From the NCBI RefSeq assembly GCF_002993965.1, contig NZ_POST01000001.1, positions 218,188-252,118 of the forward strand: a stretch of DNA of 33,931 nt. Reading direction: 5' to 3'. The stretch is from Apilactobacillus timberlakei. Its GTDB lineage: Bacteria > Bacillota > Bacilli > Lactobacillales > Lactobacillaceae. How positions within the stretch are numbered: position 1 is the first letter of the stretch; every line of letters starts with the position of its first letter. The notes below the pieces were generated by a model. The model made no database searches. It saw only the letters and a program-made list of their open reading frames with translations, and was not told the DNA's origin. Shown here one piece after another: positions 20,526 to 23,428 of this stretch. The translations under genes were made by a program, and so were the position numbers.

Positions 20526-20876
20526 TTATTTAATTTTTCTTTCATCTGAAATTGGAACATTTTCATCAATAATTCCAGCATCGCCAGATAATTGTAAATT
20601 ATTCATCTTAAGATCTAATTTCAAATTTTGATCCATATATGACTTGCTGTATCCCTTAATATAAATTGGTCCAAGATCTGAATCCATGCTTTCATCAAAA
20701 TCATGATCATCTAAATCAGGGTCAACTGCAATGAAATCAAAAGATGTGTCAATTGCACAAGAACCAGCATCAGAATAATTTCCAACACCATCATCTAAAC
20801 TTAAAAATAATTTTGCGTTACCAGAAATATTGTCTTGAATCTTTTTCTTTGCTGCATCTGTAATTGTTAATTTCAT
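20526..20876 (-). CDS. HesB/IscA-fold family protein, single cysteine
   Basis: A 116-residue protein beginning MKLTITDAAKKKIQD, as in the iron-sulfur cluster biosynthesis family. The A-type scaffolds IscA and SufA bind clusters through three conserved Cys; here only Cys40 (AGSCAID) is present and the C-terminal CxC is absent, so a scaffold role is unlikely. It is rich in Asp between 50 and 70. The gene is alone, with a strong promoter (20911-20938), AGGGGG before the ATG and its own terminator. This resembles the YneR-like proteins of Bacilli, whose role is unknown. Confidence 0.78.
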   Translation of the reverse strand: MKLTITDAAKKKIQDNISGNAKLFLSLDDGVGNYSDAGSCAIDTSFDFIAVDPDLDDHDFDESMDSDLGPIYIKGYSKSYMDQNLKLDLKMNNLQLSGDAGIIDENVPISDERKIK

Positions 20877-20972: not shown

Positions 20973-22388
20973 TCACTGATTCTGATACCAGTCATATATT
21001 GATCTAGCAACATCTAAATCGATATACTTAGCAAGGATTTCCCCTGAAGTATCTCCTCTTCTCTCAGATATTTTTAAATGAGCTAAATTCTTTTTTTGCA
21101 TCCAAATGCTTTCTCTTAAAGTTATCGATTGAATACAATGCCAATTTATAAAATGTAAATGACGATTAAAGAATCGACAGTTTTCAATCACTAAATCATC
21201 ATTTTTAATAACTTTAACCCCATTATGACGATATCGATAAAATCCGTTAAATATAACTGCAACTAGTATCATTATTTCTATAAAAAAAAACATAGTTAAC
21301 CAATTATTTCCATTTAATAACAATGGTAATGGTAATAAAAGGGTCCACAAACTATTTCTAATAAACAACCAAATCGAATAAGCACGTTGTCCTAATATTT
21401 TAGGATCTTTTGGTGGTAAATTATCAAAAAATTGGTTAGTAATTGTATATAAGTTTTTAGAATTTAAAACCGGAATAACAATAGGATCTTTAGTATTAGT
21501 GCTTTCTTTTCGATCGGAGATAATTGTAATTTTAACAGTTATTAGTTTAAATAAACTTCGAATGATATTTTGTGAAAAGTTAATGCTTTGAATACGCTTA
21601 ATATTTATTCTGAGTGTTTCTTTCTTTAGTAACCCCCGACTGAAAGTTAAGTAGCCATCCTTTTTAGTAAGTGTAAATCGATAGTATTGAATCCATATCG
21701 AGATATAACTAACAACAAAAGCAATTATTAATAAAATAACAATCTCTAGTATAACTATTATAATTCCTTTGCTACCTAAATAATTAAAAAACGCATCCTT
21801 ATACTTAGCAGAGATTGCAAATGAATACCTTTGATAAAATTCAAATAAAATAAATAATCCAAATAAGCCTCTAAAACTAGTTAAAGCAAATAAATTCATT
21901 GAATGATTAGAAATTTTATACTGTGCATCAAAGCTATTATTAACATCTGACTTTGTAATCTTATTTTCAGGTTTCGAGTTAATAGCAACGGATTTTTTAT
22001 TTTCCAATATTTTAGCAACATTCTCATTAACTGCAATTAAATTAATATTGGAATCAGAACGACTAGCATTATCAACAATTACCTCTTCTAAACTAAACGG
22101 TTTCAAAAAGAACCATTGTTTGCGATGAATATTTTGAATTTTTTCATAAGGCATATGTATTTCTTTTTTGAAAAAGATGCCACGCTTTACTAGTAATTGT
22201 TCATCTAAAATAGAATAGCGGTAAGAAAAATAAGCAGCAATGTTATATACAAATAAACAAAGTGCAAAGATTGGAGTTAGCCAAATAATTCTTATCCATA
22301 TACTTATAGCAAATATTCCTATAACTTGAGAAAAATAATTTCTTAAACCAAATAACAATGCTAATGGGTTTAAAAGCTTATTTTGCAT
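20973..22388 (-). CDS. ydbT: Membrane protein with bacterial PH domains, YdbT type
   Basis: A 471-residue integral membrane protein with several hydrophobic pairs (near 20-50, 165-180, 205-235 and 345-390) alternating with bPH2 (DUF304) domains; each domain opens with a run such as YRYSILDEQLLVKRGIFFKKE, YRFTLTKKDGYLTFSRG or GVKVIKNDDLVIENCRF. It overlaps ydbS by 11 bp, the arrangement of Bacillus subtilis ydbST, a sigma-W operon I recall as giving resistance to a cyclic bacteriocin. A similar envelope-defence role is plausible here. It is the last gene of a three-gene operon headed by an alkyltransferase-like gene, which is not part of the Bacillus operon as I know it. Confidence 0.85.
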   Translation of the reverse strand: MQNKLLNPLALLFGLRNYFSQVIGIFAISIWIRIIWLTPIFALCLFVYNIAAYFSYRYSILDEQLLVKRGIFFKKEIHMPYEKIQNIHRKQWFFLKPFSLEEVIVDNASRSDSNINLIAVNENVAKILENKKSVAINSKPENKITKSDVNNSFDAQYKISNHSMNLFALTSFRGLFGLFILFEFYQRYSFAISAKYKDAFFNYLGSKGIIIVILEIVILLIIAFVVSYISIWIQYYRFTLTKKDGYLTFSRGLLKKETLRINIKRIQSINFSQNIIRSLFKLITVKITIISDRKESTNTKDPIVIPVLNSKNLYTITNQFFDNLPPKDPKILGQRAYSIWLFIRNSLWTLLLPLPLLLNGNNWLTMFFFIEIMILVAVIFNGFYRYRHNGVKVIKNDDLVIENCRFFNRHLHFINWHCIQSITLRESIWMQKKNLAHLKISERRGDTSGEILAKYIDLDVARSIYDWYQNQ

Positions 22389-22839
22389 TTTTGGCCTCCA
22401 TTGCTAAATCCATTACTTGTTTTCTAATAAGTTGGGCTTCTTGATGCGTAACTGCTTCAATTTTATGATTATCGCCGGCAGTATCAATATAAACGCTATT
22501 TAATTTTTGTATTCTTAACAAGGGACCTTGATTTAGGTTGACATTTTGTACTCTGGCAATTGGAATGGAAGATAATTTTCTAAAGAAAAAGCCCTTTTGA
22601 ATCTCGACATATTCTTCAGAGATTTTGTATTTATTAAATGCATAACGATATGGAATTAGTGTTAACTCACATATTAATTCAAATATTCCAATACCCAAGA
22701 TGATAAAAGAAAACCAAAGCGGCCATTTAATAAGAGATAATAAGAATCTAGATAGTGCAAATACTAATAGCCAAAAAACAAAAATAATGATTGAAGCCTG
22801 CATCCATATTTTTTTAACATTTTCAGGTAATTTTTTCAT
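22378..22839 (-). CDS. ydbS: Membrane protein with one bacterial PH domain, YdbS type
   Basis: 153 residues: two transmembrane helices (about 13-30 and 38-62) followed by one bPH2 domain starting YRYAFNKYKISEEYVEI, with the conserved FFFRKLSSIPIARVQNVNL and GDNHKIEAV. It starts 4 bp after the alkyltransferase-like gene ends and overlaps ydbT, so all three should be on one transcript. The partner YdbT probably forms a complex with it in the membrane. Confidence 0.86.
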   Translation of the reverse strand: MKKLPENVKKIWMQASIIIFVFWLLVFALSRFLLSLIKWPLWFSFIILGIGIFELICELTLIPYRYAFNKYKISEEYVEIQKGFFFRKLSSIPIARVQNVNLNQGPLLRIQKLNSVYIDTAGDNHKIEAVTHQEAQLIRKQVMDLAMEAKNAK

Positions 22840-22843
22840 AAAA

Positions 22844-23362
22844 CTACTCCTTTTCGATATTTAAAAGATATTTAATAAATGCAGAGCTGTTTCTAAGGCT
22901 GTTTTTATAATCAACACCTGTAATTCGATGACTTGGGATTAAAATAATTAATGGGTTAGATAAAATTGCTTCTTCAACTTGTGATTTACTTTCAGCAAAT
23001 TGATTGGCAAAATCATTTAAATCAATTGTGTCACCATATTTAATGGTAGTAATTTCTGACCATACTTTCTTTTGGAATTCATTACCTATAAAATTCATTG
23101 GTAAGTCAAAATATTTTCGATTACCATCTAAATATTCACGGATTTGAATCTTATATTCTTCGGTTTTCTCATTGCCATATTTAAATTCTGCTGCTAAATT
23201 TGAAAAAAAATCATAAATCTCAGAAATACCACAATTAGGATTATTAACAAAATTTATACCACTATCATTAGCAGTAATTATTAATTGAATATTATTATAT
23301 TCAATCTTATCCCATAATAGTTGTTCCATAAACGTTTTTTCATTCCTATCTATATTGTACAT
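22844..23362 (-). CDS. Alkyltransferase-like (MGMT/Ogt homologue) with Cys-to-Ser active site
   Basis: Homologue of O6-alkylguanine-DNA alkyltransferase: REYLDGNRKYFDLPM, then FQKKVW, then the active-site region NPLIILIPSHRITG. In working enzymes the last motif is PCHR and the Cys accepts the alkyl group; here it is Ser144 (codon AGT). The DNA-binding Tyr is Leu115 in TIDLNDFA and the arginine finger of RAV is Ser127 in SQV. Asn136, His145, Arg146 and the C-terminal Glu170 remain. It therefore cannot repair by the known route and resembles alkyltransferase-like proteins (ATLs) in logic, although ATLs usually keep Tyr and Arg. It leads the operon with ydbS and ydbT. The start is uncertain: ATG at 23362, or 11 codons later (23329). 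Confidence 0.8.
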   Translation of the reverse strand: MYNIDRNEKTFMEQLLWDKIEYNNIQLIITANDSGINFVNNPNCGISEIYDFFSNLAAEFKYGNEKTEEYKIQIREYLDGNRKYFDLPMNFIGNEFQKKVWSEITTIKYGDTIDLNDFANQFAESKSQVEEAILSNPLIILIPSHRITGVDYKNSLRNSSAFIKYLLNIEKE

Positions 23363-23404: not shown

Positions 23405-23428
23405 AAAAAAGCAGATAGAAATCTATCT
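23405..23428 (-). terminator. Terminator of the NlpC/P60 gene
   Basis: AGATAGA and TCTATCT form a 7-bp stem with a 2-nt spacer; on the minus strand GCTTTTTTC follows. It begins 4 bp after the stop codon. Confidence 0.75.

Follow-up and report, generated by a model that had tools for sequence, protein, structure and literature searches.

A full-length Ogt-like protein without the catalytic cysteine, probably a pseudo-alkyltransferase, encoded ahead of ydbS and ydbT in Apilactobacillus timberlakei

Alkyltransferase-like proteins (ATLs), among them Atl1 of S. pombe, the ATL of E. coli and TTHA1564 of T. thermophilus (the last according to the accessible part of PMC7216122), possess an MGMT-like C-domain without the catalytic cysteine. 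Most of them have a tryptophan at the cysteine site, while the helix-turn-helix (HTH) motif, the tyrosine and the arginine finger are kept and the N-terminal domain is absent (PMC10779285, accessible part). For the PH-domain proteins YdbS/YdbT of B. subtilis and DdE/DdF of E. faecalis it is stated, in those sections of PMC8657885 that are accessible, that the DdE/DdF pair is required for the export of a leaderless bacteriocin and that a resistance role was assigned to B. subtilis YdbT without experimental support. In bee-associated lactic acid bacteria some DNA-repair genes were reported in 2024 to be absent (PMC11577768, accessible part); its main text contains none of the terms ogt, methylated-DNA or alkyl. 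In the literature searched, which lay mostly outside the subscription journals, no prior description of Ogt-like proteins without the cysteine was found for Lactobacillus or Lactobacillaceae, or in connection with TerC.

The window considered here is a stretch of 33,931 nucleotides from Apilactobacillus timberlakei (positions 218,188 to 252,118 of NZ_POST01000001.1, assembly GCF_002993965.1), and all of its features described below are located on the minus strand. An Ogt/MGMT-like protein is encoded at 22844..23362 (172 amino acids as listed) by an ORF matching PF01035 (E 1.6e-9, 37.9 bits against a Pfam cut-off of 27). It also passes the TIGR00589 ogt model, with 46.7 bits against a cut-off of 46.4, i.e. 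by 0.3 bits, and could thus be misnamed an active methyltransferase in annotation. Met12 (base 23329) is the likelier start, giving 161 amino acids; a methionine is found there in all 14 homologues of the genus. Ahead of the PF01035 part, a segment of about 80 residues can be aligned with Ogts of the family; the Pfam model of the N-domain (PF02870) matches neither this protein nor the intact relative L064, and it does match L049 and L085.

The Ogt-like gene is followed after 4 bp by a ydbS-like gene (22378..22839; 153 amino acids, one bPH_2 domain, E 5.2e-17), whose product is a membrane protein by sequence and homology, and this gene overlaps by 11 bp a ydbT-like gene (20973..22388; 471 amino acids, three bPH_2 stretches, E 2.2e-35), both being assigned by ORF and Pfam. 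The gap of 4 bp, the existence of the overlap and the undamaged frame of the Ogt-like gene had been given in the first-pass annotation of this DNA, and the ORFs agree with it. In sizes, bPH_2 content and gene order the two adjacent genes resemble YdbS/YdbT and DdE/DdF, but the accessible part of PMC8657885 says nothing of an Ogt-like gene upstream of DdE/DdF. The upstream neighbour is an NlpC/P60 gene (23432..23908), which serves as a marker of the locus in several genera, and the downstream neighbour belongs to an iron-sulphur cluster biosynthesis family (20526..20876), both by Pfam and neighbourhood. Between nlpC and the Ogt-like gene lies a weak hairpin with a T run behind it, resembling a terminator (23413..23428); it is not significant, since 36 of 200 shuffles fold equally well (z −0.86), and a separate scan does not list it. 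A promoter scan yielded 30 sites against 29.7 expected. To judge by the spacing, a shared transcript of the Ogt-like gene, ydbS and ydbT is plausible.

By column mapping, the codons of the active-site motif Pro-Ser-His-Arg were placed at 22925..22936, with Ser144 (codon 22931-22933) in the column of the acceptor cysteine. Leu115 stands in the column of the intercalating tyrosine and Ser127 in that of the arginine finger, whereas Asn136, His145, Arg146 and Glu170 are retained; alignments to the Ogt of M. tuberculosis give the same columns, and the residues named in the first-pass annotation are thereby confirmed. The protein is 95% identical to the homologue of A. micheneri and 85% to that of A. 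quenuiae. Homologues were found in 14 of the 16 Apilactobacillus genomes, G012 and G014 giving no match. The cysteine column is occupied by serine (7) or threonine (7) in these 14 proteins, all of which possess the His, Arg, Glu and Asn of the active site, and neither the intercalating tyrosine nor the arginine finger is present in any of them; their active-site loop follows the pattern NPLI-x-x-IP-S/T-HR. From residue 122 to 138, that is, before and into the recognition helix, all 14 have two residues fewer than most Ogts, a shortening also seen in the rows of g26 and g32 displayed in the alignment (genus codes are internal to the analysis, and only g1 is tied to names). Neither the own genome nor the 15 congeners contain a second PF01035 match, and a PF01035 protein with the acceptor cysteine was found in none of the 16 genomes, so that, as far as such searches tell, Apilactobacillus seems to be without an O6-alkylguanine alkyltransferase. 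That Ogt became dispensable through a loss of mismatch repair is ruled out, since MutS is present in 16/16 genomes; UvrA is likewise present in all 16. Among the matches listed, an extra UvrA-like gene of about 850 amino acids beside the usual UvrA (G000:C1:95475-97904, outside the window) was noticed, and an extra one lies over the cut-off (frame total) also in G007, G009 and G010.

Judged by dN/dS, the Ogt-like gene is under purifying selection. The ratio is 0.133, 0.237 and 0.245 for the window against L040, L041 and L038, respectively, 0.148 for L040-L041 and 0.063 for L037-L039; the pair L035-L043, for which the start of L035 was trimmed, gives 0.60 from few changes (dS 0.022). Six neighbouring genes range from 0.03 to 0.27 across three comparisons with the window. 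A sequencing error or a pseudogene is ruled out by this constraint, by the Ser or Thr in 14/14 homologues and by open frames without inner stops. The earlier suggestion that three changes at the functional sites indicate a different job is hence supported at the level of the sequence: the genus has no cysteine, tyrosine or arginine finger, and yet the gene is still under constraint. The gene is not essential, as it is missing from two of the 16 genomes. Synonymous divergence over 20973-23362 is patchy (against L041, dS is 0.20 for ydbT and 0.79 for ydbS; against L040, 0.16 for the Ogt-like gene and 0.68 for ydbT), which suggests recombination between species.

Conservation is distributed unevenly along the protein: in the genus the recognition helix belongs to the least conserved stretches, and the constraint is strongest on the active-site loop. 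Among the 14 sequences of the genus (67 pairs under 80%) pairwise identity averages 0.28 in the recognition helix, 0.24 in the helix before it (residues 92-104) and 0.72 in the active-site loop, compared to 0.55, 0.51 and 0.65 in cysteine-bearing Ogts of the family (28 sequences, 375 pairs); as the preceding helix is even less conserved, the drift is not limited to the recognition helix. In a circular-shift control the contrast of the recognition helix was matched by 6 of 159 shifts in the genus, by 4/159 in g26 and by 84/159 in g37. Pooled pN/pS in the genus (window-L041, window-L038, L037-L039) is 0.10 for the active loop, and the recognition helix has 0.45. Elsewhere this helix has 0.55 in g26, 0.04 in g37 and 0.05 in the Ogts of g19/g15. 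In g14 (L066-L069, L067-L071, L068-L070), the nearest cysteine-bearing genus, it has 0.28, which is not far under 0.45; these two figures come from 20 and 17 non-synonymous changes. The C-domain carries a mean charge of −4.5 in the genus, +4.5 in cysteine-bearing Ogts of the family and +2.7 in g14. Identity of the N-domain is 0.65 in the genus versus 0.64 in the cysteine-bearing g14, so that its conservation is no new feature.

With Ogt/MGMT proteins the window protein thus shares the full-length architecture, the matches to PF01035 and TIGR00589 and the His, Arg, Glu and Asn of the active site, and an intact PCHR Ogt occupies the corresponding yetF-nlpC place in L064; it differs from them in the absence of the cysteine, the tyrosine and the arginine finger, in the two residues missing before the recognition helix and in its acidic C-domain. 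We consider it fairly probable that a former Ogt has turned into a pseudo-alkyltransferase, i.e. a non-catalytic fold that probably no longer reads DNA. With the acceptor cysteine, the intercalating tyrosine and the arginine finger lost, neither base flipping nor repair would be expected, and the drift of the recognition helix together with the acidic C-domain would mean that DNA binding has probably been lost as well, the signs of this being charge and drift. What selection maintains would then be the fold together with its pocket loop and N-terminal domain, and the most likely role would be that of a cytosolic binding protein which engages a protein partner or a small ligand through the retained face.

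A functional ATL, which binds O6-alkylguanine without repairing it and passes it to nucleotide excision repair, would also have an MGMT fold without the cysteine and could retain the His, Arg, Glu and Asn seen in 14/14 homologues; UvrA is available in every genome of the genus, and because no PCHR Ogt was found there a protein flagging the lesion would have a role. However, the N-terminal domain is present and the HTH, the arginine finger and the tyrosine are not conserved, which is the opposite of the situation in ATLs (accessible part of PMC10779285), and the acidic C-domain also speaks against this reading, which we regard as unlikely. At the cysteine site itself the window protein has a serine and the genus serine or threonine, and Atl1 (3gva) is a weak profile match only (E 6e-4). 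Since it differs from the ATLs at each of these points, the window protein is not classed as one of them.

In 13 of the 16 Apilactobacillus genomes ydbS and ydbT directly follow the Ogt-like gene, the gaps measuring 0-27 bp in 13/13 trios, and the association is therefore not confined to one genome. In G005 the Ogt-like gene is located 101 bp ahead of the iron-sulphur gene, and the genome gives no YdbT match. In G012 and G014 the order is nlpC, a lipoprotein DNA/RNA non-specific nuclease, ydbS, ydbT and the iron-sulphur gene, with no Ogt-like match, the nuclease taking the Ogt-like slot (L121 7498-8328; L122 7326-8141). In G014 ydbT is split into two ORFs (L122 5449-6859), ydbS and the nuclease being open there; related nucleases are matched in 16/16 genomes of the genus. 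The absence of the gene from G012 and G014, the fast divergence of parts of the protein and the short gaps to ydbS would suit a remnant heading for loss, kept intact by the recency of its decay or by an aid of its translation to ydbS. This we hold to be improbable, for 14 open frames without inner stops and a dN/dS of 0.06-0.25 in five of six pairs argue against it, and in G005 the gene is kept although a YdbT match is absent.

According to the first-pass annotation the former repair fold is probably co-expressed with two membrane proteins tied to bacteriocin resistance in Bacillus. A resistance role of the PH-domain pair in Bacillus also appears in other reports. The order kept in 13/16 genomes with its short gaps could be taken to indicate a functional module of three genes whose degenerate alkyltransferase would control or support the PH-domain pair, but each side is found alone (G005; G012 and G014), and a YdbT match is missing from 11 of the 13 genomes in other genera that carry a cysteine-less homologue, which makes such a module very improbable. 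Conservation of the trio, which the first-pass annotation proposed to examine beyond close relatives, holds for the genus and fails outside it: in the 13 genomes of four other genera ydbST was beside the cysteine-less homologue in no case, also when all genes within 300 bp on the same strand were considered, and a module conserved beyond the genus is thereby ruled out. In G046 and G119 YdbT is present only at about 370 and 290 kb from the Ogt-like gene, respectively.

No consistent gene partner was found across the cysteine-less loci examined. The downstream neighbour varies with the genus: it is an amino-acid permease at 9/10 loci of g26, a nuclease in g32 and g34, and TerC at 14/14 loci of g37 and in g27. 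In G046 and G048 the Ogt-like gene is overlapped at its end by a nuclease of the same kind as in G012 and G014, and in G119 such a nuclease lies 13 bp downstream of it; as a repair partner the nuclease of G046/G048 is unlikely, both copies having a lipobox-like start by eye. The simplest course would be an ancestral order of nlpC, Ogt-like gene, nuclease and iron-sulphur gene, and an arrival of ydbST before the iron-sulphur gene in Apilactobacillus, after which one of the two, nuclease or Ogt-like gene, would have been lost. Because the genes dissociate in both directions and the Ogt-like gene occurs without ydbST in other genera, the adjacency is no sign of joint function. It looks like a local arrangement of Apilactobacillus that would give co-transcription at most.

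For the family, 397 genomes were searched, of which 331 gave a match; the stretches of about 79, the own genome included, were read for the alignment, and those of G012 and G014 in addition, so that the spread of the cysteine-less forms is known for the sample read. Thirteen further cysteine-less homologues occur in g26 (9), g32 (2), g34 (1) and g36 (1), with Leu, Met, Val, Thr or Asp at the cysteine column, and the one of g36 (L050) keeps Tyr and Arg at the two other columns. In g14, which stands next to these genera, PCHR was present in 7/7 read. An intact relative in the same neighbourhood, which the first-pass annotation would have counted against its claim, exists in part: L064 of g26, at the corresponding yetF-nlpC place, combines PCHR with the Tyr and the Arg, but ydbST is not beside the gene.

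A separate lineage is formed by g37 and g27. At 14 loci of g37 (L049, L096-L108; identical proteins were dropped in one of the sequence readings) the cysteine column holds Ser (9), Asp (4) or Cys (1, L107), while Tyr, Arg and a conserved recognition helix are kept, and the Ogt-like gene overlaps TerC by 14-20 bp in all of them. In g27 (G116, L085 3136-4804) three cysteine-less Ogt-like ORFs lie in tandem with PTHR, PSHR and PTHR, the last overlapping TerC by 4 bp; these copies keep Arg and have Ser at the tyrosine column. A tree of 98 of the 109 aligned rows (the 11 dropped rows, from ten loci, are all PCHR, three of them of fusion length) requires at least five changes of the cysteine state, four of them forced by well supported branches, and a careful tree of 57 rows, made without near-copies, second copies per genome and many genera, requires four, three of them forced. 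One origin of all cysteine-less forms is ruled out (AU p 4.7e-6), so that they arose at least twice in the family; by these trees more origins are possible. A single clade within the group sharing Trp17 (g1, g26, g32/34/36) is not rejected (p 0.161), and independent losses there are consequently not established, though the cysteine-bearing L064 lies inside g26. For the cysteine-less rows of g37/g27 as one clade excluding the cysteine row L107, p is 0.04.

The g37 proteins fit better to an ATL-like job by their residues, though they are full-length, as only the cysteine is lost. We tentatively propose that a further type of pseudo-alkyltransferase, different from the ATLs, exists in the Lactobacillaceae, which would be full-length and would have lost both chemistry and DNA reading, with the old loop binding either another protein or a free ligand resembling a nucleobase; of the at least two cysteine-less lineages, the TerC-coupled g37 would have stopped at an ATL-like state, and in the other DNA reading would have been lost as well. 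Within one family, and partly at one traceable locus, there is a natural series that runs from the intact enzyme over loss of the cysteine only to loss of the DNA-reading residues, and it makes the steps from a suicide repair enzyme to a pseudoenzyme testable. Outside this family, L047 from another family of the order is a cysteine-less PSHR form with neither Tyr nor Arg at the columns; its branch is the longest in the tree, and its placement is uncertain. In one Asp form of g37 (L108) the His is replaced as well, by Gln.
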